Shown here: piece by piece, positions 33,383 to 48,734 of the stretch
How positions within the stretch are numbered: position 1 is the stretch's first letter
Layout: every line of letters starts with the position of its first letter
Assembly: GCA_004299845.1 (NCBI GenBank)
Contig: CP036201.1
Span: 3,782,001-3,846,000 of the forward strand
DNA: 64,000 nt
Source of the DNA: Verrucomicrobia bacterium S94
Lineage (GTDB): Bacteria > Verrucomicrobiota > Kiritimatiellia > Kiritimatiellales > Pontiellaceae
Reading direction: 5' to 3'
Position numbers and translations under genes: made by a program
The notes under the pieces: model-generated
The model's database searches: none
What the model saw: only the letters and a program-made list of their open reading frames with translations
Told to the model about the DNA's origin: nothing

Positions 33383-33489
33383 ACCAGGGAACCGCCGGGC
33401 TTTTGACGAAAAGCTCTGCGCGGAATAACGCTGTCGTTAAGACCGGAATGTTTTGGTAAATGGTATTATATTGGCCGCTGTTTATGGGC

Positions 33490-33632
33490 TCAGATTTTTT
33501 CAGCACCTTTCAGCTGAAACATTTCCAATTCGAAACCGTCCGGCACTTCCGTAAACCCGGTATTGTGTCCGTCGGCTTTTCCCCCAGGATGGTCACTTCA
33601 TCGAATGTCAGGGACAGTTGTTTCGGATTCAT
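33490..33632 (-). pseudogene. Decayed gene end with a frameshift
   Basis: On the minus strand a frame reads MNPKQLSLTFDEVTILGEKPTDTIPG; after a one-base shift the next frame reads GFTEVPDGFELEMFQLKGAEKI and then stops. Both halves look like one coding sequence broken by a frameshift. The PDGFELEMFQL end resembles the last strand of VOC/glyoxalase-fold proteins, but this is a weak likeness. The coding pattern continues upstream of the ATG as KTEVGAIFLL without a start, into the arsR promoter. A good terminator lies downstream, as for a once real gene. Confidence 0.4.
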
Positions 33633-33676
33633 TAACAGGAATATGGCTCCGACTTCTGTTTTTATTTATCGAACGG

Positions 33677-33711
33677 TTGACAACTTTTTACATTTGGCTA
33701 TATTGCCAAAT
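33677..33711 (+). promoter_or_regulatory. arsR promoter with operator over the -10 box
   Basis: TTGACA (33677-33682), a 16-base spacer and TATATT (33699-33704) make a near-consensus sigma-70 promoter. The -10 box is the centre of a perfect palindrome, ATTTGGC-TATATT-GCCAAAT (33692-33711). A dimeric ArsR repressor bound there would block the promoter, and the first gene downstream is an ArsR-family gene, so autoregulation is likely. Confidence 0.8.
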
Positions 33712-33729
33712 AATAATTCGGAGCATGGT

Positions 33730-34050
33730 ATGACCGGGAAGGAAAAAAATCTGTATGAAGCGAAGGCAAAGGTGCTGAAGGCGCTGGCGCATCCGACGCG
33801 GCTGTGGATGGCGGAGCAGCTGTCGGTCGGGGAAAGGTGTGTCTGCGAATTTGTGGATCAGATCGATGCCGATTTTTCGACAATCTCGAAGCATCTTTCG
33901 GTACTGAAACAGGCGGGAATTGTGCAGGACGAGAAGCGCGGCAAGCAGGTGTTTTATAAAATGAAGGTTCCATGCGTGATGAATTTCATGAGTTGTGTGG
34001 AAGCGGTCATTGAGAACAATGCAAAGGATCAGGCGACATTATTGAAATAA
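33730..34050 (+). CDS. ArsR-family transcriptional repressor
   Basis: 106 residues, winged helix. The family core is clear: AKAKVLKALAHPTRLWMAEQLSVGERCVCEFVDQIDADFSTISKHLSVLKQAGIVQDEKRGKQVFYKMKV. The ERCVCEF segment carries the C(V)C pair of the classic alpha-3 metal(loid) site, and one more Cys is at CVMNFMSC. So thiol-dependent sensing of As/Sb or another metal, or of thiol redox state, is plausible. The start at 33730 has CGGAG upstream. It heads a unit with an ArsP-like permease and three thiol-redox genes. Confidence 0.9.
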   Translation: MTGKEKNLYEAKAKVLKALAHPTRLWMAEQLSVGERCVCEFVDQIDADFSTISKHLSVLKQAGIVQDEKRGKQVFYKMKVPCVMNFMSCVEAVIENNAKDQATLLK

Positions 34051-34104
34051 TTTTTGAACGATTATTGGTTAAAAGGTCAAATGACCATGTAATGAGGTGG
34101 TGCA

Positions 34105-35406
34105 ATGAATTGGAAGACTGAGTGGAAAAAGCTGGCGTGGATTGTCGGGATATTTTTGGGGTTCTTCTATCTTCCGGTCGGGAATACGCGATTTGACCAT
34201 GCTGTAATGGAGTCGCTCCATTTGGCGAAATGGTATGCTCAGGAGCATGTTCTGCTCTGTTTGGTTCCGGCTTTTTTTATTGCGGGGGCGATTGCGGTAT
34301 TCGTCAGCCAGGGCGCGGTGATGAAATACTTGGGAGCAAGAGCCAAAAAGGTGGTAGCCTATGGGGTGGCTTCGGTTTCAGGAACCATTCTGGCGGTTTG
34401 TTCCTGCACGGTGCTTCCGCTTTTTTCGGGAATTTATAAAATGGGAGCCGGATTAGGGCCGGCTACGGCGTTTCTTTATTCCGGACCGGCGATCAATGTA
34501 CTGGCGATTGCCCTCACGGCCCGTATCCTCGGTGCGGAAATGGGGATTGCCCGTGCGGTCGGTGCTATTCTGTTCAGTGTGGTGATCGGATTGCTGATGC
34601 ACCTTATTTTCCGCAAGGAGGAACAGGAAAAAGCTGCGGCCCAGATGGCCCTGCCCGAAGAAGAGGTGGCCCGTCCGTTATGGCAGAACGGCCTCTATTT
34701 TTTCTCGATGGTTGGGATTCTGGTTTTTGCCAACTGGGGCAAGCCGGATCTGGATACCGGTCTCTGGGCGGCGATTTATTCTTTAAAATGGATCATTACT
34801 TCCATTTTTGCTGCGGCCTTCGGAGTATTCCTCGTACTTTGGTTCAGTATTAAATGGTGGAAGGTCGTGTTGACTGCCGTTCCGGTCGGTACTTTGGCCC
34901 TCACATTTCCGGAACAACCCATCCTTGCGTTCAGCGCCGGGGCGGTGGGGCTTTCGTGGTTCACCAGCACCGATAAAGGTGAAGCAGGGGAATGGTTCAG
35001 TTCGTCCTGGGGATTTGCCAAACAGATTCTTCCTCTACTGCTTTTCGGCGTCCTGATTGCCGGTCTGCTGCTCGGCCGGGTGGGCCAGGAGGGTTTGATT
35101 CCTTCCGAATGGGTCGCCTCCGCCGTGGGCGGAAATTCGCTGCGGGCTAACTTTTTTGCATCATTTGCCGGGGCTTTCATGTACTTCGCCACGCTTACTG
35201 AAGTGCCTATCCTGCAGGGGCTGATCAACAACGGCATGGGCAAAGGTCCCGCATTGGCCTTGCTGCTGGCCGGCCCTGCACTCAGCCTGCCGAACATGTT
35301 GGTGATTCGCAGCGTGCTTGGCACCAGGAAGACGGTCGTGTTCGTTTCGCTGGTTATTGTTATGGCGACAGTCAGTGGAATGATTTTTGGAACGTTTTTC
35401 AATTAA
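34105..35406 (+). CDS. ArsP/DUF318-type permease
   Basis: 433 residues with about ten to eleven hydrophobic segments. The ILAVCSCTVLPLFSGIYKMGAGLGPATAFLYSGPAINVLAI block is the signature of the DUF318/permease family that includes the organoarsenical exporter ArsP; a matching second half has ATLTEVPILQGLINNGMGKGPALALLLAGPALSLPNML. The Cys-Ser-Cys pair suits binding of a thiophilic substrate. It lies 54 bases after arsR. The substrate (arsenic compound or other metal species) is not certain. Confidence 0.82.
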   Translation: MNWKTEWKKLAWIVGIFLGFFYLPVGNTRFDHAVMESLHLAKWYAQEHVLLCLVPAFFIAGAIAVFVSQGAVMKYLGARAKKVVAYGVASVSGTILAVCSCTVLPLFSGIYKMGAGLGPATAFLYSGPAINVLAIALTARILGAEMGIARAVGAILFSVVIGLLMHLIFRKEEQEKAAAQMALPEEEVARPLWQNGLYFFSMVGILVFANWGKPDLDTGLWAAIYSLKWIITSIFAAAFGVFLVLWFSIKWWKVVLTAVPVGTLALTFPEQPILAFSAGAVGLSWFTSTDKGEAGEWFSSSWGFAKQILPLLLFGVLIAGLLLGRVGQEGLIPSEWVASAVGGNSLRANFFASFAGAFMYFATLTEVPILQGLINNGMGKGPALALLLAGPALSLPNMLVIRSVLGTRKTVVFVSLVIVMATVSGMIFGTFFN

Positions 35407-35538
35407 ACGGACGGTGTCGGGGAATTGAGACCGGATAGATGCCATGTGGCGGTGCGGCCGATGGGCCGTGGAGGGCTTAGTTGATGAATAATACGTCGTA
35501 TAACGGCGTTTAAAGAAGGAATGAACGGAGGACATAAA

Positions 35539-35769
35539 ATGAAAGTACAGATACTGGGCACCGGATGTCCGAAATGCAAAAAAACGGCGGAGGCGGCTCA
35601 ATCGGCCATTGATGAACTGGGTATTGATGCTGAAATCGAAAAAGTGACCGACCTGAATGAAATTATGAAGTTCGGAGTCATGCTGACTCCCGCGCTGGCG
35701 GTGGATGGCGACGTTAAGGTCGTGGGTAAAGTTCCCACGGTGGATGATGTAAAGAAAATGCTGAAATAA
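35539..35769 (+). CDS. Small thioredoxin-fold protein (redox-active disulfide protein 2 type)
   Basis: 76 residues. MKVQILGTGCPKCKKTAEAAQSAIDELGIDAEIEKVTD is the thioredoxin-fold start with active site CPKC (Cys10, Cys13), and VMLTPALAVDGDVKVVGKVPTVDDV includes the cis-Pro of the fold. This type is common beside DUF318 permeases. The start at 35539 follows GGAGG. It probably passes electrons between the other thiol proteins of the cluster. Confidence 0.88.
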   Translation: MKVQILGTGCPKCKKTAEAAQSAIDELGIDAEIEKVTDLNEIMKFGVMLTPALAVDGDVKVVGKVPTVDDVKKMLK

Positions 35770-35835
35770 AGGGAACGCTGGCAACGGAAAACAGGAACGA
35801 ATCCATCTATATGGTTATGGGGGAATACGGAGCTT

Positions 35836-36321
35836 ATGAAAAGAATTATACCGATTGTATTGCTGGTGGTTGCAGTGATTGCCGTAGTAGGCATAAAAAA
35901 CAAAAAGAATCATGCCGCTCCGGAAATCGCCGGTTGCGAAGGGGGTGTCTGCACACTGCCGATTCCGCAGGAAAAGGTGGTGCAGGAAGCGGCGGAGGCC
36001 GATGCGCCCGTCGACAGTCCGTTGCCGAAACTGCTCGATCTGGGAGCCGGCAAGTGCATTCCGTGTAAAATGATGGCGCCGATTCTTGATGAGATGAAGG
36101 AAACCTTCGCCGGACAGCTTGATGTGGAATTCATTGATGTCTGGGAAAACCAGGAAGCCGGACAGCAGTATGGAATCCGTATGATTCCGACACAGATTTT
36201 TTTCGATGCGGATGGCCAGGAACTGTTTCGTCATGAAGGATTTTATGCCCGCGAAGATATGCTGAAAAAATGGCAGGAGCTGGGCTTTGAGTTTGAAGAC
36301 CGCGCTGAATCTGCAGAGTAG
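35836..36321 (+). CDS. Membrane-anchored thioredoxin-family protein
   Basis: 161 residues. An N-terminal membrane segment (IIPIVLLVVAVIAVVGI) anchors a periplasmic thioredoxin domain: LLDLGAGKCIPCKMMAPILDEMKETFAGQLDVEFIDVWENQEAGQQYGIRMIPTQIFFDADGQELFRHEGF. The active site is CIPC instead of CGPC, and the cis-Pro lies in MIPTQ. A further CEGGVC pair sits just after the anchor. The next gene encodes the CcdA-type electron carrier that could reduce it. Confidence 0.88.
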   Translation: MKRIIPIVLLVVAVIAVVGIKNKKNHAAPEIAGCEGGVCTLPIPQEKVVQEAAEADAPVDSPLPKLLDLGAGKCIPCKMMAPILDEMKETFAGQLDVEFIDVWENQEAGQQYGIRMIPTQIFFDADGQELFRHEGFYAREDMLKKWQELGFEFEDRAESAE

Positions 36322-36336
36322 CGGAGGAGAAAGTGT

Positions 36337-37035
36337 ATGGAACAGCTGTTCATTGCTTTGACGCATGCGATCGAAAGCACCCCGCTGATTGCTCTCAGTG
36401 CGGCGCTGGTCTGGGGCGTGCTGAGCATAATTCTCAGTCCGTGTCATCTGGCCAGCATTCCGTTGATTATCGGATTTATTGATGAACAGGGCCGCACTTC
36501 GCCCCGTCGGGCTTTTCTGACGGCTCTGCTGTTTGCCACCGGCATTCTGCTGACCATTGCGCTGATCGGTTTGATTACGGCGGCGCTGGGCCGCATGATG
36601 GGCGACGTCGGGCGCTACGGAAACTGGTTTGTAGCGTTGATCTTTTTTGTGGTCGGCCTGCATCTGCTGGGCGTGATTCCCATGCCGGGCAGCGGCCCGG
36701 GACAGGTGGGGATGAAACGAAAAGGACTGCTTGCCGCATTCATTCTCGGGCTTATTTTCGGCATTGCGCTCGGTCCCTGCACCTTTGCCTATATGGCACC
36801 GATGCTTGGAGTGACCTTTAAACTCGGTGCGGAACAGCCGCTCTATGCCGGAAGTCTGCTGCTGATGTACGGAATCGGACACTGCAGTGTCATTGTCGCC
36901 GCCGGCACCTCAACCGGTCTGGTGCAGAAATACATGAACTGGAACGAAAGCTCCAAAGGTGCCGACCTGCTTAAGAAAGTCTGCGGAGTGCTGGTGCTGA
37001 TCGGGGGGCTTTACCTGATCTACACCGCGCCCTGA
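36337..37035 (+). CDS. CcdA/DsbD-type transmembrane electron carrier
   Basis: 232 residues with about six transmembrane helices. It has the two conserved Cys-Pro sites of the family: LSPCHLASIPLIIGFI in the first helix and ALGPCTFAYMAPMLGV in the fourth. It transfers reducing power from cytoplasmic thioredoxin to periplasmic thiol proteins. It starts 15 bases after the thioredoxin gene and ends the arsR-led unit. No cytochrome c assembly genes are near, so service to the thiol proteins of this cluster is the better guess. Confidence 0.87.
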   Translation: MEQLFIALTHAIESTPLIALSAALVWGVLSIILSPCHLASIPLIIGFIDEQGRTSPRRAFLTALLFATGILLTIALIGLITAALGRMMGDVGRYGNWFVALIFFVVGLHLLGVIPMPGSGPGQVGMKRKGLLAAFILGLIFGIALGPCTFAYMAPMLGVTFKLGAEQPLYAGSLLLMYGIGHCSVIVAAGTSTGLVQKYMNWNESSKGADLLKKVCGVLVLIGGLYLIYTAP

Positions 37036-38235: not shown

Positions 38236-38250
38236 TGGCACATCTGTTGC
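38236..38250 (+). promoter_or_regulatory. Sigma-54 promoter of the guanidine/urea operon
   Basis: TGGCAC-ATCTG-TTGC matches the -24/-12 consensus (TGGCAC-N5-TTGC) exactly, with GG and GC at the required spacing. It lies 83 bases upstream of the first start codon. Such promoters need an ATP-driven activator and are typical of nitrogen assimilation. Confidence 0.85.
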
Positions 38251-38333
38251 GTATAGCAACGGTATCACTAATAAACTATCTAGTAATACTGTAGAGGATG
38301 AGAAAAACCAAACCCAATGGAGATTAAACCGAG

Positions 38334-39308
38334 ATGAAACTGACCTTCCTTATGAGACCCATTGCTGTGATCATGGCGCTGATTGCCACTGCTGCTGTGG
38401 CGGAACCGCTTAAAATTGCCTATAGCGATTGGCCGGGCTGGGTGGCCTGGGATATCGCCAAGGAAAAAGGATTTTTTGAAAAGCACGGCGTGGAAGTGGA
38501 ACTGCTTTGGTTTGAATATGTGGCCTCGATGGATGCCTTCGCGGCGGGTAAAGCCGATGCGGTCTGTGTGGCCAACGGCGACTCGGTGGTGCTCAATGCC
38601 ACGGGGGCCCGCAACGTGATGATTCTGGTGAACGACTATTCCAACGGGAACGACAAAATCGTCGCCCGGGAAGGGATCGCCGATGTGAAAGCGTTGAAAG
38701 GAAAGAAGATCGGTGTCGAAATCGGTTTTCTCAGCCATGCGCTGCTGATCAAGGCGTTGCAGGATAACGGCATGTCGGAAAAGGATGTGGAACTCATCAA
38801 TATGCCGACGCATCAGGCGGCACAGGTGCTGGCGTCCGGCGATGTGGATGCGATCGTGGCGTGGCAGCCGCATTCCGGCATGGCGTTGAAAGCCTCCGAG
38901 GGATCCACGGCGGTGTATACGACAGCCGATGCGCCCGGCATTATCTATGATACGCTTTGTGTGGCACCCGGCAGCATTCTGAAACGCAAAGCCGACTGGC
39001 AGAAGGTGGTGGCGGCCTGGTATGACGTGATCGACTATATGGCCGATCCGGCCAATGAAGAGGAAATGCTTCAGATTCTCTCCGCCCGCGTCGGTCTTAC
39101 GCCGGCTGAATATAAACCCTTTCTCTCCGGCACCTACATGATGAGCAAAGACGAAGTGCTCAAGGCGCTTGAGCCCGGAGACGGATTTGAGTCACTTTAT
39201 GGTTCCTGTGAAGTGGTGAATCAGTTTTTCGTTGCCAACAAGGTTTATGAAGAACCGGTGGCGGTTAAGCGCACCATCGATCCGTCGTTCACTAAATCCG
39301 TGAAATAA
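38334..39308 (+). CDS. ABC transporter substrate-binding protein (NrtA/TauA/SsuA type), guanidine operon
   Basis: 324 residues with a signal peptide (IAVIMALIATAAVAEP). The mature protein follows the NMT1/SsuA pattern: LKIAYSDWPGWVAWDIAKEKGFFEKHGVEVELLWFEY, AFAAGKADAVCVANGDSVVLN, DIKALKGKKIGVE-like VKALKGKKIGVEIGFLSHALLIKAL, GDVDAIVAWQPHSG. It should capture the substrate for the permease and ATPase downstream. In the known guanidine clusters proteins of this type are annotated as urea or guanidine binders; the cargo here is inferred from the deiminase and carboxylase genes. It is the first gene after the sigma-54 promoter. Confidence 0.88.
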   Translation: MKLTFLMRPIAVIMALIATAAVAEPLKIAYSDWPGWVAWDIAKEKGFFEKHGVEVELLWFEYVASMDAFAAGKADAVCVANGDSVVLNATGARNVMILVNDYSNGNDKIVAREGIADVKALKGKKIGVEIGFLSHALLIKALQDNGMSEKDVELINMPTHQAAQVLASGDVDAIVAWQPHSGMALKASEGSTAVYTTADAPGIIYDTLCVAPGSILKRKADWQKVVAAWYDVIDYMADPANEEEMLQILSARVGLTPAEYKPFLSGTYMMSKDEVLKALEPGDGFESLYGSCEVVNQFFVANKVYEEPVAVKRTIDPSFTKSVK

Positions 39309-39330
39309 TCTCTCCTCAAACCTCCTGGCG

Positions 39331-39414
39331 GGCCGGCTTCGGCCGGTCTGCCGAACCCTTTGCCCGCAGCATGCGGGCGATATACAACTTTCCAATCCCC
39401 GGAAAAATCCGGGG
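39331..39414 (+). repeat. Three tandem stem-loops between binding-protein and permease genes
   Basis: GGCCG-GCTT-CGGCC (39331-39344), GCCCGCA-GCA-TGCGGGC (39362-39378) and CCCCGGA-AAAA-TCCGGGG (39397-39414). None is followed by a T run. Hairpins in this place often protect the upstream mRNA, so that the binding protein is made in excess over the membrane parts. Confidence 0.65.
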
Positions 39415-39425
39415 ACAGGGGTGTC

Positions 39426-40439
39426 ATGTCTAAACAGGAAAAATGGTTCAGGTTCGGAAAGAGCCTTTCGCCGAAGCGCGTCAGGGGACTGACCGTTGCG
39501 TCGTTTATTCTTCCGCTCGTGCTCTGGTCGGCGATCAGTTATATTCCGGGTCTCTGGCATCCGGAAGTACAGATTGAGAAGGTTGGGGACAGTCTGTATT
39601 TTGATGCGGGCGACCGGGTCGACGTGGAGACTTTTGAGCTGGAAAACAAAAATCTTCAGGCATCGGACGGTGTTCCAATGGTGGGGAAACGGGTAAACCC
39701 GGTCTATTTCCCGGCGCCGCATGAGGTGGTTCGCGCGCTCTATTCCGCATTCGTCACCGAGCCGCGTCGCGATGGTGAACCATGGTTTCATGAAAGTGTG
39801 GCGCACAGTGTGCGGGTGGTCTTCTGGGGTTTTCTGCTTTCATCGCTGTTCGGGGTTCCGCTTGGTATTCTCTGCGGCGTCTTCAGCTATTTTTCCAAAC
39901 TGATTGAACCGTTTGTGGAGTTTTTCCGCTACTTCCCGGCCCCGGTGTTCGGTGCGCTGGCGGTGGCGATTCTGGGCATCAACGATGCGCCGAAAGTGGC
40001 GATCATTTTTATCGGTACGTTTTTCCAGCAGGTGCTGGTGATCGCCAACACGACGCGGACGGTGGATTTCAGTCTGGTTGAGGCCGCGCAAACGCTGGGA
40101 GCCAAACCGGGACGACTGCTTTTCAAGGTCGTGATTCCCGCGGTACTGCCGAAACTGTATATGGATATGCGGATTCTGCTGGGCTGGGCATGGACCTACC
40201 TGATTGTGGCGGAGGTTGTCGGCACCAGTACAGGCATCAGCTGGTTTATTAATCAGCAGGCCAAATACCGTATGTTCGACAATGTCTATGCCGCGATCCT
40301 GGTGCTCGGTTTTATCGGGCTGGGCACCGACATGCTGCTCGGTGCGCTCGGGAAACAGCTGTTTGCCTGGGAGGACGGGCGGCGTTCAGGATTCGGCAAA
40401 ATGCTGCGAAAAATAAAACCTGCACCGGCGGAGGCCTGA
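39426..40439 (+). CDS. ABC transporter permease, guanidine operon
   Basis: 337 residues. The core is a BPD-type permease domain with the EAA loop VEAAQTLGAKPGRLLFKVVIPAVLPKLY. Membrane helices lie at about residues 25-45 and then from residue 120 on. Between the first helix and the core is an unusual periplasmic or loop insert of about 70 residues (WHPEVQIEKVGDSLYFDAGDRVDVETFELENKN...). The start at 39426 fits the permease; the frame open to 39360 crosses the stem-loops. Its stop is two bases before the ATPase start. Confidence 0.9.
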   Translation: MSKQEKWFRFGKSLSPKRVRGLTVASFILPLVLWSAISYIPGLWHPEVQIEKVGDSLYFDAGDRVDVETFELENKNLQASDGVPMVGKRVNPVYFPAPHEVVRALYSAFVTEPRRDGEPWFHESVAHSVRVVFWGFLLSSLFGVPLGILCGVFSYFSKLIEPFVEFFRYFPAPVFGALAVAILGINDAPKVAIIFIGTFFQQVLVIANTTRTVDFSLVEAAQTLGAKPGRLLFKVVIPAVLPKLYMDMRILLGWAWTYLIVAEVVGTSTGISWFINQQAKYRMFDNVYAAILVLGFIGLGTDMLLGALGKQLFAWEDGRRSGFGKMLRKIKPAPAEA

Positions 40440-40440
40440 G

Positions 40441-41343
40441 ATGACCGATTTGCCCAGTACACTGAACCTGCCGTCCTATAAAGAGCAGTCGCATAAAGTG
40501 AAGGAGCGTCTGGACCATATCAAAAGCCAGCCGGTTGTTATCGAAGTCGATAAGCTGGTGAAGGATTTTCCAACGGAAGAGGGCATGCGCCGCATTCTCG
40601 ACCAGGTGTCTTTTAAAGTGCACAAGCGCGAATTCCTTTCCATCATCGGCCCGTCGGGCTGTGGTAAGTCGACGGTGATCCGCATGATGGCCTGTCTGGA
40701 AGAGATCACCGACGGTCTGATTCTAGTGGACGGTTATCCAGTATCCGAGCCCGGGGCTGATCGCGGTATGGTGTTCCAGAAGTACACGCTCTTTCCCTGG
40801 CTGACCGTAAAGAAGAATGTCATGTTCGGTTTGGAGGTCGGCGGTGCCAGTAAGTTTGATGCCGAGCGCGATGCCCTCCAGTGGCTGGATATTGTCGGGC
40901 TCGAACCCTATGCCGATCTTTATCCGGCACAGCTTTCCGGCGGGATGCAGCAGCGCGTGGCCATTGCCCGCGCATTAGCCAATAAGCCGAAAGTGCTGCT
41001 GATGGATGAGCCGTTCGGGGCGCTTGATGCGCAGACGCGCGCCAAAATGCAGGCCTATCTCCTGCAGATCTGGAAGAAGATCGATATCACGATTATTTTT
41101 ATTACGCACGATCTGGATGAGGCGGTTTATCTCTCCGACCGCGTGCTGGTGCTCGAAGCCAATCCGGGCCGGGTGCAGGAAATGGTGGAAGTCCCGGTCA
41201 GCAGGCCGCGTTCGCCGAGTCAGTTTTTATCGCCGGAGTTTCTGACCACTAAAATCCATCTCGAGGAACTGATTCATCCAACCGCAGAGGAGGCTCAGGA
41301 TGATTTTGAGGTGGTTAAAATGGTGGCCAAAGAAGCTGGATGA
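40441..41343 (+). CDS. ABC transporter ATPase, guanidine operon
   Basis: 300 residues. Walker [10 protein letters not shown] at residues 70-78, Q-loop [10 protein letters not shown], signature [15 protein letters not shown], Walker [13 protein letters not shown] and His switch ITHDLDEA. It belongs to the nitrate/sulfonate/taurine (SsuB/NrtD) subfamily, which matches the binding protein and permease. A longer-than-usual N-terminus (about 35 residues before the domain) is noted. Its last codons overlap an ATG of the next gene. Confidence 0.94.
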
Positions 41344-41357
41344 TCAGAGGAAAGGGA

Positions 41358-41801
41358 ATGAAGAAAGAAAAACAGAATTACAAACGGTTCAGTGTCACTA
41401 TGCCGGCCGAGCTCTATGAAGAGCTCGAAGAGATGGCGGAAGATCGGGGGATGGATAACCGCTCCATGATGATCTCGGATCTGGTGAAACGTGAAGTGCT
41501 TAAACACCGTCAGCTGGACCGTTCCCGCGTGATGGCAGGAACGCTGACGATCTCCTACGACGCGGCGGTCGATGACTGTGCCAACCGGCTGATCGCGCTG
41601 CGCCGCAACTATCTGGATGAAGTGATCTCCACGTTTCAGGTGATGCTGGAGGATGGAAAAAATCTGGAGATCTGGCTGGTGCAGGGGCAGGTGGAGGTAC
41701 TCCATACCCTGCTTTCCCGCGCGCTGAAATGCAGCAAAAGCATGATGGGGCAGATTACCTTTGCCGACGCCATCCTGCCGCCGCTCAGAACCAATCGATA
41801 A
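41358..41801 (+). CDS. NikR-like ribbon-helix-helix regulator lacking the nickel site
   Basis: 147 residues. The N-terminal ribbon-helix-helix (KRFSVTMPAELYEELEEMAEDRGMDNRSMMISDLVKREVLKH) and the ACT-like C-terminal domain (GTLTISYDAAVDDCANRLIALRRNYLDEVISTFQVMLEDGKNLEIWLVQG...MMGQITFADA) have the NikR architecture. In NikR three His and one Cys bind nickel. By hand alignment the equivalent places are Arg83, Gln94, Met96 and Asn102, so nickel control is unlikely. Lying between the importer and the deiminase genes, it may sense guanidine or a nitrogen signal. The start at 41358 follows AGAGGAAAGGG; an ATG at 41340 overlaps the ATPase stop. Confidence 0.78.
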   Translation: MKKEKQNYKRFSVTMPAELYEELEEMAEDRGMDNRSMMISDLVKREVLKHRQLDRSRVMAGTLTISYDAAVDDCANRLIALRRNYLDEVISTFQVMLEDGKNLEIWLVQGQVEVLHTLLSRALKCSKSMMGQITFADAILPPLRTNR

Positions 41802-41817: not shown

Positions 41818-42543
41818 ATGAAATCTATACCCGAAGAAAAAATACTGTATGAAACCGTGGTTTCCGGAGGCTGGAACTTTTCGCACATTGTGCGCCGCGG
41901 CTGTACATTGCGGATTACCGATCTTGAAGGCGGCGGCAATGCCTCGGTGCTGTTTTACAATGCGGACAACTATACCGAGCGCTATAACATGGGTGACACC
42001 CTGAAAATCCAGCACATCTCATCGCTCTTCAAACATGCCTGTATCTATTCCGATATGGGCCGCGTGCTTATGAGTATTCCCGATACATCGAACGACTGGC
42101 ACGATGTCATCTGCGGGGTGACCTACCGCGAAGACATGCTCCAGCGTTTCGGCACAAAAAGCTATCAGGAAGCCCGCAACGATTTTTATCGGAACGGTTA
42201 TGACTCGCTTACGGTTGAGCTGGCCAAATACGGCATGACCAAGCGCGACTTCACTAATGTGGTGAATTTCTTTTCAAAAACCGACATCGATGCCGACGGC
42301 AATATGACCTTTGTTCCTGATGCATCACCGGCCGGTTCCTTCGTGGATCTGCGTGCCGAGATGGATACGCTGGTCATTCTGGATGCCGGTATGCATCCGC
42401 TGAATCCGTCGAGCGAATATGTGGCGAAGCCGATCGGTATCACACTGTATGCATCCGAACCCGCCGCGGCCGATGATCCCTGCCGGATGCTCTGCCCGGA
42501 GAATCAGCGCGGGTTTGAAAATTCGGAAAATTATTATTTGTAG
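41818..42543 (+). CDS. cgdA: Carboxyguanidine deiminase subunit CgdA-type (DUF1989, UAAP1)
   Basis: 241 residues, DUF1989 family, formerly called urea amidolyase-associated protein 1. With CgdB it removes an amino group from carboxyguanidine to give allophanate. Family pattern: ETVVSGGWNFSHIVRRGCTLRITDLEGGGNASVLFYNADNYTERYNMGDTLKIQH, then CSDMGRVL-like YSDMGRVLMSIPDTSNDWHDVICG and VNFFSKTDIDADGNMTF. The CgdA/CgdB pair is what separates guanidine from plain urea pathways. The start has AAAGGA upstream; the longer frame from 41761 lies within the regulator gene. Confidence 0.88.
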   Translation: MKSIPEEKILYETVVSGGWNFSHIVRRGCTLRITDLEGGGNASVLFYNADNYTERYNMGDTLKIQHISSLFKHACIYSDMGRVLMSIPDTSNDWHDVICGVTYREDMLQRFGTKSYQEARNDFYRNGYDSLTVELAKYGMTKRDFTNVVNFFSKTDIDADGNMTFVPDASPAGSFVDLRAEMDTLVILDAGMHPLNPSSEYVAKPIGITLYASEPAAADDPCRMLCPENQRGFENSENYYL

Positions 42544-42552
42544 GAGTCGATC

Positions 42553-43197
42553 ATGAGTGAATTGAAAGAAAGTACATTGGTTGAAGAACATGCCCGGCTG
42601 AGCGAAACGGTTTCAGCAGGAACCTATTGGATGAAGGTGGTGAAAAAAGGAGAGATTCTCCGGATTACCGATCTTGAAGGGAATCAGGCGGCTGATACCC
42701 TGTTCTTCAACGCGAACAATACCGAAGAACGTTACCATGCGAACAATACGCTGCGAATGCAGAACAACGTCTACATCAAGCTCGGCACAGAAATCCGTTC
42801 TAACGAAAACAACGTAATGATGAAAGTGGTGGCTGACACCTGCGGGCGGCACGATACGCTAGGCAGTGCCTGTTCCTGCGAAAGCAACACGTCGCGCTAT
42901 GCCCATGAAAAACGTTATATGCACAGCTGCCGCGATACATTCCTGCAGGGGATTCTCGACTGGGGCAACGGCATGGATAAGCGCGATCAGGTCTGCAATA
43001 TCAACTTTTTCATGAATGTTCCGGTCGATCCGGAAGGCGGGTCCGATTTTGCCGATGGGATATCCGAGGCCGGAAAATATGTAGAGCTGGAGGCCGTGAT
43101 GGACACGCTTGTTTTTGTCTCCAACTGCCCGCAGCTGAATAATCCCTGCAACGGCTACAACCCGACACCGGTGAAGATGACGATCTGGGAACAATAA
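42553..43197 (+). CDS. cgdB: Carboxyguanidine deiminase subunit CgdB-type (DUF1989, UAAP2)
   Basis: 214 residues, DUF1989, formerly urea amidolyase-associated protein 2. It is a paralogue of the gene before it, with the same frame KKGEILRITDLEGNQAADTLFFNANNTEERYHANNTLRMQN. Cys and His clusters suited to metal binding follow (TCGRHDTLGSACSCESNTSRY, MHSCRDTF), then NINFFMNVPVDPEG and NCPQLNNPCNGYNPTPVKM. It starts nine bases after cgdA's stop. Subunit of the deiminase that turns carboxyguanidine into allophanate. Confidence 0.9.
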   Translation: MSELKESTLVEEHARLSETVSAGTYWMKVVKKGEILRITDLEGNQAADTLFFNANNTEERYHANNTLRMQNNVYIKLGTEIRSNENNVMMKVVADTCGRHDTLGSACSCESNTSRYAHEKRYMHSCRDTFLQGILDWGNGMDKRDQVCNINFFMNVPVDPEGGSDFADGISEAGKYVELEAVMDTLVFVSNCPQLNNPCNGYNPTPVKMTIWEQ

Positions 43198-43206
43198 TGA
43201 ATGCGA

Positions 43207-43259
43207 ACCACGAACTACACGAAATCCCGAGAGCTGCTGAGTTTCGTGTAGTTCGTGGT
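43207..43259. repeat. Perfect 18-bp inverted repeat before the carboxylase gene
   Basis: ACCACGAACTACACGAAA (43207-43224) pairs exactly with 43242-43259 across a 17-base loop. It belongs with other gap sequences of the window built on the CACGAA(x)ACACGAAA theme. No T run, so it is not a plain terminator; it lies within the operon. Confidence 0.85.
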
Positions 43260-43293
43260 CATCATCGGTTTACACACGACAGAGGATAATTGA

Positions 43294-46200
43294 ATGTTTA
43301 AAAAAGTACTGGTGGCCAACCGCGGCGAAATTGCCTGCCGTATTATCCGCACGCTGAAGGAAATGGGGATAACCGCCGTGGCGGTCTATTCCGATGCCGA
43401 CGCCGATGCGGAACATGTGGCGATGGCCGACGAGGCGTATAACATCGGTCCGGCGCCGGCGAAGGAGAGTTATCTCAACACGGATAAAATCCTGGCGGTC
43501 ATGAACGACCACGGGGTGGAAGCCGTGCATCCGGGGTATGGCTTCCTCAGTGAAAATGTTGAATTCCGCAAAGCCTGCCTGGAGCTGGGCGTTGAATTTA
43601 TCGGCCCCGAGGAACGCCACATTCTTGAGTTCGGCCTCAAACATATGGCACGCGATCTGGCGGAATCCGCCGGAGTGCCGCTGGTGCCGGGAACGCCGCT
43701 GCTCAACAGCCTGGAAGAGGCGCTCGAAGCGGCGGAGCATATCGGCTATCCGGTTATGCTGAAAAGCACGGCCGGAGGGGGCGGAATCGGCATGCGCATC
43801 TGCAACGAATCCGACGAGCTGGAAGCGCACTACGATACGATCAAACGCCTCGGTAAAAACTACTTTAAAGACGAAGGGGTTTTTCTGGAAAAATATATTC
43901 GCACCTCCCGGCACATTGAAGTTCAGGTGTTCGGCAACGGTAAAGGCGAGGTCGTTGTTCTGGGAGAACGCGACTGTTCGGTTCAGCGGCGGAATCAGAA
44001 AGTGATCGAGGAGACGCCGGCCCCGAATATATCGGAAGAGACGCGTGCGGCACTGCATGCCGCAGCGAAAGCGCTGACGGAAAAGGTGGCCTATCGTTCC
44101 GCAGGTACCGTCGAGTTTATTTATGACACCGAAACAGAGCAGTTTTATTTTCTTGAAGTGAACACCCGTCTGCAGGTGGAGCACGGAATTACGGAGGAGG
44201 TGTTCGGCGTTGATCTGGTGCGCTGGATGGTTGAGCTGGCGGCGGGTGAAGATCCTACCCCCGGAAAATTTGATCTGAAGCCGTCTGGCTGCGCGATGGA
44301 GTTCCGGGTCTATGCCGAGGATCCCGGCAAGGAGTATCAGCCGTCGAGCGGCATCATTACCAAAGCCGAATTCCCGGAAGGCATTCGGGTGGATAAATGG
44401 GTGGAAACGGGTGCCGAGGTGTCGGCCTATTATGATCCGCTGCTGGCCAAGGTGATTGTGACGGGAAGCACCCGGGATGAAACAGTTGCCCGTTCCGTGG
44501 ACGTTTTGTCGAACACCGCGATCTGCGGTTTTGAAACCAACATTCAGCTGATGAGGCAGGTGCTTGAAGATGAAACCTTCCGGCGCGGTGAGGTTTTCAC
44601 CGGCCTGCTGAATACGTTTGATTATCGGGCAGATACGATTGAAGTGGTCGTGCCGGGAACGCAGACGACCGTGCAGGATGTGCCCGGCCGTATCGGTTAT
44701 TGGGGCATCGGGGTTCCGCCGTCGGGACCGATGGATATGCTCAGTTTCCGCATCGCCAACCGGCTGGTGGGCAATGCGGAGAATGCCGCGGCGCTCGAAA
44801 TGACGATGTCGGGGGGAGTTATAGGTTTAACTGTGATGCCGTTGTGGCGGTGGCCGGCGGTGACCTGACCGTGATGCTGAACGGAGCGACGGTTCCGTTG
44901 CACGAAGCGTTCGAAGTCAGGGCCGGTGATACCGTCAGCGTGAGCGCTTTCTATAAAGGGCAGCGCGCCTATCTGGCCGTACGCGGCGGACTGGATGTTC
45001 CGGACTACATGGGCAGTAAATCCACCTTCATTCTCGGACGTTTCGGCGGTCATGCAGGGCGGGCATTGGCCGCCGGTGATGTACTGCATATCGGCGATTC
45101 GGTTGACGATGAGTGGACTATGAGGAAGCTGCCGGAAGCCGCTGTGCCGGAAATTTCAAGCCATTGGAAAATCGGCGTAATGTATGGACCGCACGGCGCG
45201 CCGGACTTCTTTACGGAAAAGGATATCGACACCTTCCTGGCGCATAAATGGGAAGTACACTTCAATTCGTCGCGCACCGGCGTCCGCCTGATCGGCCCGA
45301 AGCCGGAATGGGCGCGGACCGACGGCGGCGAAGCGGGGCTGCATCCCTCGAACATTCATGACAATGCCTATGCCATCGGCGCGATCGACTTTACCGGCGA
45401 TATGCCCGTGATTCTTGGGCCCGACGGTCCGAGTCTGGGCGGCTTTGTCTGTCCGGTCACGGTGGTGGGTGCGGAGCTCTGGAAAGTCGGACAGCTGAAG
45501 CCGGGGATACAGTTCAGTTTATTCCCATAACGCTTGAGGAGGCCGGCCGGCTTGAAAAAGAGAATGCTGCGCTCATCGAATCGGGGACGCCGATGACGGT
45601 GCCGAACTATGCAACCATCGAGGATACGCCGGCGGTTATCGGCACATGGAATGAGGAAGATGAATTTGAAAAAGTGGTCTGTCGGCAGGCGGGGGATCAG
45701 TATCTGCTGCTGGAGTTCGGGCCGCTGCAGCTCGACCTGCGGCTGCGCTTCAAAGTGCATGCCTGGAACCTCAAGTTTGAAGCGCTGAACCTGCCGGGCA
45801 TCATTGATATGACGCCGGGGATTCGCTCCTTCCAGTTGCATTTTGATCCGGCCGTGCTGCCGCGCAGGGAACTGCTCGCGCTGATTGATTCGCTGATCAA
45901 AGAGCTTAGTGAAAATCCGCCGGAGGAAGTGGAATCGCGGATCGTTCATCTGCCGCTGAGCTGGGATGATCCGCAGACGCGCGTAGCGATTGAAAAATAT
46001 ATGTCGTCGGTTCGGAAGGATGCGCCGTGGTGTCCGAGCAATATTGAATTTATCCGGCGCATCAACGGTCTCGATTCCATTCAGGATGTACAGGATATTC
46101 TGTTTGAAGCCAGTTATCTGGTGATGGGGCTGGGCGACGTTTATCTCGGTGCGCCGGTGGCCACTCCGCTGGATCCGCGGCACCGGCTGGTGACCACAAA

Positions 46201-46885
46201 ATATAATCCGGCGCGGACATGGACGCCTGAAAACGCGGTGGGCATCGGCGGGGCCTATATGTGTGTCTACGGTATGGAGGGGCCGGGCGGTTATCAGTTT
46301 GTCGGACGGACGGTGCAGATGTGGAATCGCTATCATCAGACCCGGGAATTTAAACCCGGTAAACCGTGGCTGCTGCAGCCCTTTGATCAGATTCGGTTTT
46401 ATCCGGTTGGTGGCGATGAGCTGATGCAGATGCGCCGCGATTTTCTGAAGGGCCGTTTTTCGCTGAAGATTGAAAAGACGACATTCAATATTCGTGAGTA
46501 CAATCATTTTCTGGAGGCGAATGCCGGGAGCATCGATGCGTTTAAGTCAAGGCAGCAGGCGGCGTTTGCGAAAGAGTATCAGCACTGGGTGGACAACGAT
46601 CTGCTGACGTTTGAAGAAGCGGTGCAGGAAGCGTCGTCGGAAGAGACGGAAATCATGGCGGGCGCCGAAGCCGTGACGGCTTCCGTGGCCGGCAGTGTCT
46701 GGCAGTGCAAGGTCAAGGTCGGCGACACGGTTGAAGCCGGTGATGAGGTGGTGGTGCTGGAAAGTATGAAGACGGAGATTCCGGTGATTGTTCCGGCAGC
46801 CGGCGAAGTGGTGCAGTTTTTCTGCTCTGCCGGCGATACGGTCAAGCAGGGCCAGCCGGTTTGCTCAATTAAATCTAATGAATAA
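43294..46885 (+). pseudogene. Guanidine (urea-type) carboxylase, frame broken at two G runs
   Basis: Three consecutive frames add up to one enzyme of about 1,197 residues, the normal length of urea/guanidine carboxylases. The biotin carboxylase domain opens MFKKVLVANRGEIACRI with VHPGYGFLSENVEF, the Gly-rich ATP loop KSTAGGGGIGMRI and ERDCSVQRRNQKVIEE. Then come the allophanate-hydrolase-2-like and -1-like (KipA/KipI) domains and a biotin-carrier end with VLESMKTEI, whose Lys takes biotin. The frame is lost at G6 44811-44816 and G4 45503-45506; one more G at each restores [14 protein letters not shown] and [11 protein letters not shown]. With cgdAB beside it the substrate is probably guanidine. 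Either two sequencing errors or a recently lost gene. Confidence 0.85.
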
Positions 46886-46967: not shown

Positions 46968-48734
46968 ATGAAAAGTTTACAGATCAGTGCGCTGCATCAG
47001 GCGTATGCAAAGGGTGAAGAGACGGTGGCATCCGTCATGGAAAAATGTCTGCAGCAGGCGGATGAGCTTGCGCCGGAGGTGTGGATCCGGAAGCTGACGG
47101 CGGAAGAGGTTTCTATTTATGTGGGGGCTCTGAAGGGGGAATCGCCGGAGACGAAGCCGTTGTACGGTATTCCGTTTGTGATTAAGGATAATATTGATCT
47201 GGCCGGTATTCCGACGACGGCGGCGTGCCCGGAATATAGTTATGTCCCGGATCAGTCGGCACATGTAGTAGCCAGGCTGATTGAGGCCGGGGCGATTCCA
47301 TTGGGCAAAACCAATATGGATCAGTTTGCAACCGGGCTGGTGGGCACGCGGTCACCCTATGGCGCCTGCCCAAACAGCTTTGATCCGGCTTATGTTTCCG
47401 GGGGGTCGAGCAGCGGTTCAGCGGTTGCTGTGGCGGAAGGTTGTGCCTCGTTTTCGCTGGGCACGGATACGGCCGGTTCCGGCCGGGTTCCGGCGGCATT
47501 CAATAATCTGATCGGATTGAAACCGTCACGCGGTGCACTGAGCTGTTCGGGGGTGGTGCCGGCGTGTAAGAGTCTTGACTGTGTTTCGGTTTTTGCGCTG
47601 GATGCGTCTGATGCCCAGACAGTGTTTGAGGTGGTGAATGATTTTGATCCGGGGGACTGTTATTCCCGTGAACTGGAGCAGGTTCCGGTAATTTCCAGCG
47701 GTTGGAAATTCGGGGTGCCGAAAAGAGAGCAGTTGAAGTTTTTCGGAAGCCGTGAATATGAATCCGCATTTTCTGAAAGTCTGGATATGCTGGAGAAGGC
47801 GGGCGGCACACGGGTTGAGGTGGATTTTCAGCCGTTCCTTGATGCGGCAGATCTGCTGTATTCCGGGGCCTGGGTGAATGAGCGTTATGCGGCGGTCGGT
47901 CCGTTCATTGAAGAGCATCCGGAGGCCGTGCTGGAGACGACACGGAATATTATTCTGTCAGGGCTGGATATTGCTGCACCGGATGTGTTCAGGGGATTTT
48001 ATACTTTGCAGGAGTTCAAACGCATTGCGGATGCGGTGATGAGATCGGTTGATCTGATTGTCACGCCAACAGCGGGCACGCCTTATACGATTGACGAAGT
48101 GAATGCGGATCCGGTTCAGCTGAATACCAATCTGGGGTATTACACCAATTATATGAATCTGCTGGACTATGCCGCTATTGCAGTGCCGACGGTACTGACG
48201 CCGTCGGTACCGTTCGGCGTGACGCTGCTCTCCTTTGCGGGGCATGACCTGAAACTGCTGCAGCTGGCGGACCGCCTGCATCAGGTGTCCGGCCTGAACG
48301 TCGGTAAAACGGATCGGCGGCCCACGCCGCTGGAACTGCCGGCAAAGAAAAAACGGACGATCGATCTTGCGGTCTGCGGCGCGCATCTTAACGGATATCC
48401 GCTGCACCATCAGCTTGAAGAACTCGGCGCCTCGTTTGTGGAATCAACCGAGACCGCGAAGTCTTACCGGATGTATGCTTTTGAAACAGACGGTATCGCC
48501 AAGCCCGGCCTGATCCGCGATGCGGAGAAGGGCAGGCGCATCTATGTGGAGATCTACCGGATGACCTATCAGAATTTCGGTAAATTTGTAGCCGCCATTC
48601 CGGCTCCGCTGGGCATCGGTAAAATCAAACTCCGGGGCGGGGCGGAGGTCTGCGGTTTTATCGCCGAACCCGAAGTGGCCGCCATCGGCAAAGAGATCAC
48701 CGAACTTGGGGACTGGCGGAAGTTTGCCGGTTAG
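46968..48734 (+). CDS. atzF: Allophanate hydrolase
   Basis: 588 residues. The N-terminal amidase-signature domain has the Ser-cisSer-Lys triad: Lys73 in GIPFVIKDNIDLAG, the cis-Ser near residue 147 in VSGGSSSGSAVAVA, and Ser171 in TDTAGSGRVPAAFNN. The C-terminal AtzF domain (KKRTIDLAVCGAHLNGYPLHHQLEELGASFVESTETAKSYRMYAF...FGKFVAAIPAPLGIGKIKL) is complete. It splits allophanate to ammonia and CO2, the last step of guanidine breakdown. The start at 46968 (MKSLQ) is preferred to 46935, with no good ribosome binding site for either. Its stop overlaps that of the convergent MBL remnant. Confidence 0.93.
   Translation: MKSLQISALHQAYAKGEETVASVMEKCLQQADELAPEVWIRKLTAEEVSIYVGALKGESPETKPLYGIPFVIKDNIDLAGIPTTAACPEYSYVPDQSAHVVARLIEAGAIPLGKTNMDQFATGLVGTRSPYGACPNSFDPAYVSGGSSSGSAVAVAEGCASFSLGTDTAGSGRVPAAFNNLIGLKPSRGALSCSGVVPACKSLDCVSVFALDASDAQTVFEVVNDFDPGDCYSRELEQVPVISSGWKFGVPKREQLKFFGSREYESAFSESLDMLEKAGGTRVEVDFQPFLDAADLLYSGAWVNERYAAVGPFIEEHPEAVLETTRNIILSGLDIAAPDVFRGFYTLQEFKRIADAVMRSVDLIVTPTAGTPYTIDEVNADPVQLNTNLGYYTNYMNLLDYAAIAVPTVLTPSVPFGVTLLSFAGHDLKLLQLADRLHQVSGLNVGKTDRRPTPLELPAKKKRTIDLAVCGAHLNGYPLHHQLEELGASFVESTETAKSYRMYAFETDGIAKPGLIRDAEKGRRIYVEIYRMTYQNFGKFVAAIPAPLGIGKIKLRGGAEVCGFIAEPEVAAIGKEITELGDWRKFAG

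Follow-up and report, generated by a model that had tools for sequence, protein, structure and literature searches.

Guanidine operon

The window, by which we mean the whole 64,000-nucleotide stretch of DNA that was analysed, contains a forward-strand operon in the order ABC importer (38334-41343), NikR-like regulator, UAAP1, UAAP2, guanidine carboxylase and allophanate hydrolase, with a sigma-54-type promoter and a predicted operator ahead of it (Table 1). Domain annotation of the neighbours agrees with the initial annotation, which had placed the regulator between importer and deiminase genes. The UAAP1/UAAP2 pair together with the allophanate hydrolase, all above the NCBIfam cut-offs, give the operon the features of a guanidine carboxylase operon. 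The carboxylase has Asp at the position of Asn1330 in the K. lactis urea amidolyase and also at 1584, and Asp at these two positions is the criterion for telling guanidine from urea carboxylases (PMC11410670). Every regulator-bearing locus with that stretch covered has the guanidine-type Asp at 1330, and this residue disfavours a urea carboxylase.

Table 1. Features of the guanidine operon and its control region (window coordinates)
Feature	Position	Strand	Remarks
Sigma-54-type -24/-12 promoter, TGGCACATCTGTTGC	38236..38250	+	Perfect match; not significant alone in window
Predicted regulator operator, GTATCACTAATAAACTATCTAGTAATAC (GTATtAC-N14-GTAATAC)	38262..38289	+	At about +1 of the sigma-54 promoter
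ABC importer substrate-binding protein (SsuA / putative urea-guanidine type)	38334..39308	+	
ABC importer permease	39426..40439	+	
ABC importer ATPase	40441..41343	+	
NikR-like ribbon-helix-helix/ACT-like regulator	41358..41801	+	Nickel ligands replaced by R83, Q94, M96, N102; C-terminal ILPPL tail
UAAP1 (DUF1989), carboxyguanidine deiminase subunit	41818..42543	+	TIGR03425, 300 bits, above cut-off
UAAP2 (DUF1989), carboxyguanidine deiminase subunit	42553..43197	+	TIGR03424, 313 bits, above cut-off
Guanidine carboxylase (biotin carboxylase, carboxyltransferase, biotin carrier)	43294..46885	+	Two frame breaks in assembly
Allophanate hydrolase	46968..48734	+	TIGR02713, 740 bits, above cut-off

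Breaks at 44800-44830 and 45490-45530 divide the carboxylase gene among three frames; each looks like the loss of a single base, and the two lie in similar GGG(C) surroundings. In G035, a close relative whose regulator is 97% identical, the carboxylase is one open frame of 1201 codons. An assembly error is a plausible explanation for the breaks and a recent pseudogene a possible one. Weak chance matches to microRNA models lie on both strands of the gap between UAAP2 and the carboxylase (43205-43260), so the gap probably forms a hairpin; its length varies among relatives, and certain other bacteria have guanidine-II aptamers in the corresponding gap. Upstream, at 33460-37035, lies a row of genes for an ArsR-type regulator, a permease, thioredoxin-like proteins and a membrane protein similar to CcdA, apparently a cluster of its own that is related to arsenic or thiols.

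Regulator protein

The regulator matches Pfam RHH_1 (E 2e-6) and NikR_C (E 2.1e-10), both above cut-off (for NikR_C the gathering cut-off), and among solved structures P. horikoshii NikR is closest to it (E 2.4e-17), as expected from the ribbon-helix-helix plus ACT-like layout of NikR proposed earlier. An in-frame ATG is also present at 41340, but the alignment of the relatives begins at the ATG at 41358. The NCBIfam NikR models match the protein below every curated cut-off, with 67.3 bits against the 105 required by the best model. Aligned to P. horikoshii NikR, the ligand columns His, His, His and Cys are occupied by Arg83, Gln94, Met96 and Asn102, the same residues that had been placed there by hand. 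No His or Cys residue is invariant among the Pontiellaceae regulators, so a substitute metal site is not visible and a replacement site is unlikely. We therefore rejected a substitute site for this family.

An AlphaFold model built from five sequences had low confidence (pLDDT 54) and was left out of the analysis of pocket detail. Its elements run beta-alpha-alpha, then beta-alpha-beta-beta-alpha-beta, and NikR chains are its best PDB matches by Foldseek, in line with the NikR fold anticipated by the initial annotation, though at that low confidence. The fold search also lists, weakly, an Lrp-type protein complexed with phenylalanine.

Regulator clade and its association with guanidine genes

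In a tree of NikR_C proteins calculated with the ligand columns and the tail excluded, a branch with support 100/96 separates the 32 ligand-altered proteins from 57 intact-ligand NikRs (including the E. coli and P. horikoshii references) and 6 others. The ligand Cys is absent from all clade members and most have an LPP[LIV]-type tail. Among 24 representatives, the clade-specific residues are Gln109, Leu115 and Pro141 (24/24 each), Glu98 (22/24) and Pro142 (21/24). The old ligand pocket is variable, with mainly R/H/A/Q, H/Q/L/R, L/H/F/Q/M and T/S/Y/V/N at its four positions. Thus no guanidinium pocket common to the whole clade is evident where nickel was once bound, and the only conspicuous residues are Glu98, Gln109 and those of the PP tail.

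Loss of the ligands is graded, from family f35, which keeps the three His and lacks the Cys alone (HHHY), to the Pontiellaceae, where all four are gone; for this reason the loss of metal binding is secure for derived members such as the window protein only. It is conceivable that the regulator is still a metalloregulator that binds a divalent metal through remaining or different ligands and ties the operon to metal supply, as the f35 members and the His94-equivalent kept in most of the clade would allow. We consider this very unlikely, since in Pontiellaceae all four ligands are lost and no His or Cys is invariant, and since the carboxylase pathway is not a nickel pathway. All four ligands are likewise missing (D/N, R, A/L/T, S in their place) from a separate NikR_C group of one genus (g55; L167-L172), which lies away from guanidine genes and is unrelated to the clade.

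Members of the clade sit in guanidine carboxylase operons of Kiritimatiellota/Verrucomicrobiota, Sphingomonadaceae, Caulobacteraceae and Acinetobacter. Within a phylum sample of 241 genomes, UAAP1 was found in 30, 23 of which have a clade member, and all 23 genomes with an intact clade member also have the guanidine operon. Loci were extracted for 19 of these 23 (L041-L053, L055-L060), and in 19/19 the regulator adjoins the guanidine genes or lies within 3-6 kb of them; gene order as in the window operon was seen in L001-L004 and L180 (G035). Plasmids of Sphingobium, Acinetobacter, Novosphingobium and Asticcacaulis also carry the regulator at guanidine genes, the proteobacterial sample being small and drawn from plasmids. 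The same gene had been expected next to cgdA/cgdB-type genes in other genomes, and its clade-wide presence at or near guanidine genes rules out a chance neighbour in one genome. Intact-ligand NikR_C proteins lie away from guanidine operons, and two examples that were checked adjoin CbiM and CbiQ.

Some side observations were made at these loci. Two Acinetobacter records labelled as phage (CAKLQH020000001.1 and CAKLQF020000001.1, 330-380 kb) hold an Acinetobacter-type regulator annotated nikR, and are possibly a plasmid-like element or host DNA. Matches to the Rfam family 5_ureB_sRNA near the guanidine operon in L046, L048 and L052 suggest nearby urease genes.

The association also has exceptions. 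Seven genomes of the phylum have a guanidine operon but lack both the regulator and any known riboswitch. In one f35 genome that has no UAAP1 the clade member is truncated, which is consistent with decay following operon loss. Both findings could be taken to mean that the regulator represses without a ligand or survives as an autoregulatory relic, with guanidine control coming from elsewhere. That reading seems quite improbable to us, as the open frame and the adjacency are kept across phyla despite large sequence divergence and the operator is conserved. In L103-L108 (families f31 and f37), which have no regulator or known riboswitch, the operon contains a second UAAP2-type gene.

Promoter and operator

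The aligned leaders of the Pontiellaceae operons have a common block with GTATCACT-N12-AGTAATAC, and the window operator is the sole perfect match to the Pontiellaceae form GTATNACT-N12-AGTNATAC in the 4.1 Mb genome. For the wider set of loci we used the generalised operator GTATTAC-N14-GTAATAC, allowing up to 2 of 14 mismatches and comparing spacers of 6 to 25. At spacer 14 there are 34 sites in 31 regulator-bearing loci, as opposed to 4 or fewer for any other spacer, and the regulator-less loci have 1 site in 16. The window has one site, compared with 0.03 in shuffles. A convincing operator was absent from 5 of the 31 regulator-bearing loci (L042, L048, L049, L052 and L053).

The E. coli NikR operator is GTATGA-N16-TCATAC (PMC7055735), and the window operator, read as GTATnA-N16-TnATAC, has this inverted-repeat format as judged by sequence only. 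N14-type sites also occur at some intact-ligand NikR loci of the phylum. Together with the E. coli spacing, this makes the operator format look inherited while the signal changed.

As the sigma-54 motif is not significant by itself in the window, its significance lies only in its position relative to the operator. In most regulator-bearing loci the distance from the end of the box to the operator is 1-15 bp; it is 11 bp in the window and the same in the Pontiellaceae relatives. Boxes of this kind have a background rate of 4.7% per 180-bp stretch. The source genome has two sigma-54 genes. A sigma-54-like box is also found 10-50 bp before the aptamer in all scanned riboswitch operons but that of Niallia, so operator and aptamer occupy about the same position.

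Acinetobacter NCu2D-2 has three operator sites, located before an aptamer/deiminase/carboxylase unit, a regulator/atzF unit and an importer/2OG-oxygenase/SMR-exporter unit; related guanidine carboxylase clusters can hold a 2OG-oxygenase and an SMR exporter (PMC12508155). The first Acinetobacter operator lies upstream, not downstream, of the sigma-54 box and may therefore act differently there. In Sphingomonadaceae a second operator is found upstream of the importer genes (L036 6845-6872; L038, L101, L102). In Sphingobium and N. capsulatum the second operator stands between the importer genes and a divergent TonB-dependent receptor gene, and this receptor is a possible outer-membrane route for guanidine compounds.

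Regulator and riboswitch

No guanidine aptamer of any class in Rfam 15 was found in the window at the gathering threshold, and a permissive search of the operon region up to E 5 gave no guanidine riboswitch, so that a hidden one was rejected at that limit. The guanidine-I family (RF00442) was likewise not found in any of the 241 phylum genomes, which makes the proteobacterial comparison the cleaner one, though small. Nine regulator-less plasmid operons were scanned (Azospirillum, Paraburkholderia, Niallia, two from Pantoea, Rhizobium, Peteryoungia, Burkholderia and Caballeronia); all nine have a guanidine-I aptamer and several have guanidine-II too. None of the scanned regulator-bearing operons outside Acinetobacter has a guanidine-I aptamer, and the Acinetobacter operon has regulator and riboswitch together. 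Regulator and riboswitch are therefore almost complementary in distribution, with Fisher test values that ignore relatedness of p = 0.0004 for loci, p = 0.018 by family and p = 0.007 for Pseudomonadota only.

This distribution also bears on the identity of the ligand. The same repressor and operator could respond to another ligand, a pathway intermediate or some other small molecule, for example carboxyguanidine, allophanate, urea or an amino acid that signals nitrogen status. Amino acids are frequent ligands of ACT-like domains, the remodelled pocket is unconserved, and the Lrp-type match, although weak, points the same way. We regard another ligand as unlikely but worth keeping in mind, given that the riboswitch to which the regulator is nearly complementary binds guanidine, that the operon carboxylase is of the guanidine type, and that the Acinetobacter operator also stands before the SMR-exporter and 2OG-oxygenase unit. 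From the ligands first suggested, guanidine, urea or an amino acid, urea has become less likely because the carboxylase residue at K. lactis position 1330 is the guanidine-type Asp.

Proposed mechanism and significance

Our preferred explanation, which we think is probably correct, is that an operon-specific repressor derived from nickel-responsive NikR is released by guanidine or a close derivative and replaces the riboswitch. It builds on features established at the level of sequence comparison, namely the NikR architecture, the nickel-site loss, the tie between clade and operon, the promoter, and the 28-bp palindrome with NikR-type spacing at the promoters. The regulator would bind this palindrome as a NikR-like tetramer. 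The window operator would span about +1 to +28 of the sigma-54 promoter, and a bound repressor would thus stop transcription at initiation or early in elongation. After entry via the importer, guanidine or a close derivative (e.g., methylguanidine) would bind the ACT-like domain, and the DNA would be released. Transcription would then require nitrogen limitation, through sigma-54 and an NtrC-type activator, plus guanidine. Repression, tetramer, activator and ligand are all steps that we infer.

The regulon of the NikR-like regulator and its loss of nickel sensing are well supported, and the genomic context makes the clade a strong candidate for a protein guanidine sensor, with guanidine as the ligand inferred from that context. 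A protein sensor in place of the usual riboswitch had been suggested by the initial annotation; nickel-site loss, cross-phylum association, near-complementarity and the operator at promoters all speak for that part, and the ACT-like domain may be where guanidine binds. Whether this is a guanidine-responsive transcription factor, possibly the first, with a rebuilt NikR pocket that senses guanidinium, the NikR operator format kept, and a role as riboswitch substitute in several phyla, is to us an evenly balanced question. To our knowledge, guanidine sensing has so far been known for RNA switches only. Our search of the open-access literature, with subscription journals mostly outside its scope, gave no prior description of a NikR-like or CopG regulator with guanidine, or of NikR with urea carboxylase.

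The family is a concrete and testable guanidine-sensor candidate with a predicted operator, and it has cultured hosts in Acinetobacter, Novosphingobium, Sphingobium and Asticcacaulis. If the explanation is true, the family would show how in nature a metalloregulator can be turned to an organic ligand and how a protein can replace a riboswitch at the same promoter position. The results also indicate that some family proteins annotated as "nikR: nickel responsive transcriptional regulator" (e.g., in Acinetobacter) are misnamed.

Comparison with known systems

The regulator has the ribbon-helix-helix plus ACT-like NikR_C layout in common with NikR, the nickel-responsive repressor of E. coli, H. 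pylori and P. horikoshii, and its predicted operator resembles the E. coli NikR operator in being a palindrome with 6-bp halves (GTATnA) and N16 between them (PMC7055735). Unlike NikR, it has all four ligands replaced and stands in a guanidine operon instead of with nickel genes, it falls below every NCBIfam NikR cut-off, and its clade has its own LPP tail, Glu98 and Gln109. The guanidine-I riboswitch (RF00442) controls the kind of operon that the regulator is predicted to control, and in proteobacterial operons it lies just downstream of a sigma-54-like promoter; it is an RNA aptamer in the leader, whereas the window has a predicted DNA-binding protein and operator at about the same place. 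The closest described operons are those with cgdA/cgdB, gca and atzF (Vreelandella boliviensis, PMC12508155), which have the importer type, deiminase pair, carboxylase and allophanate hydrolase found in the window. The guanidine carboxylase operons described there are riboswitch-controlled with no protein regulator named, whereas the window operon has the NikR-like regulator.
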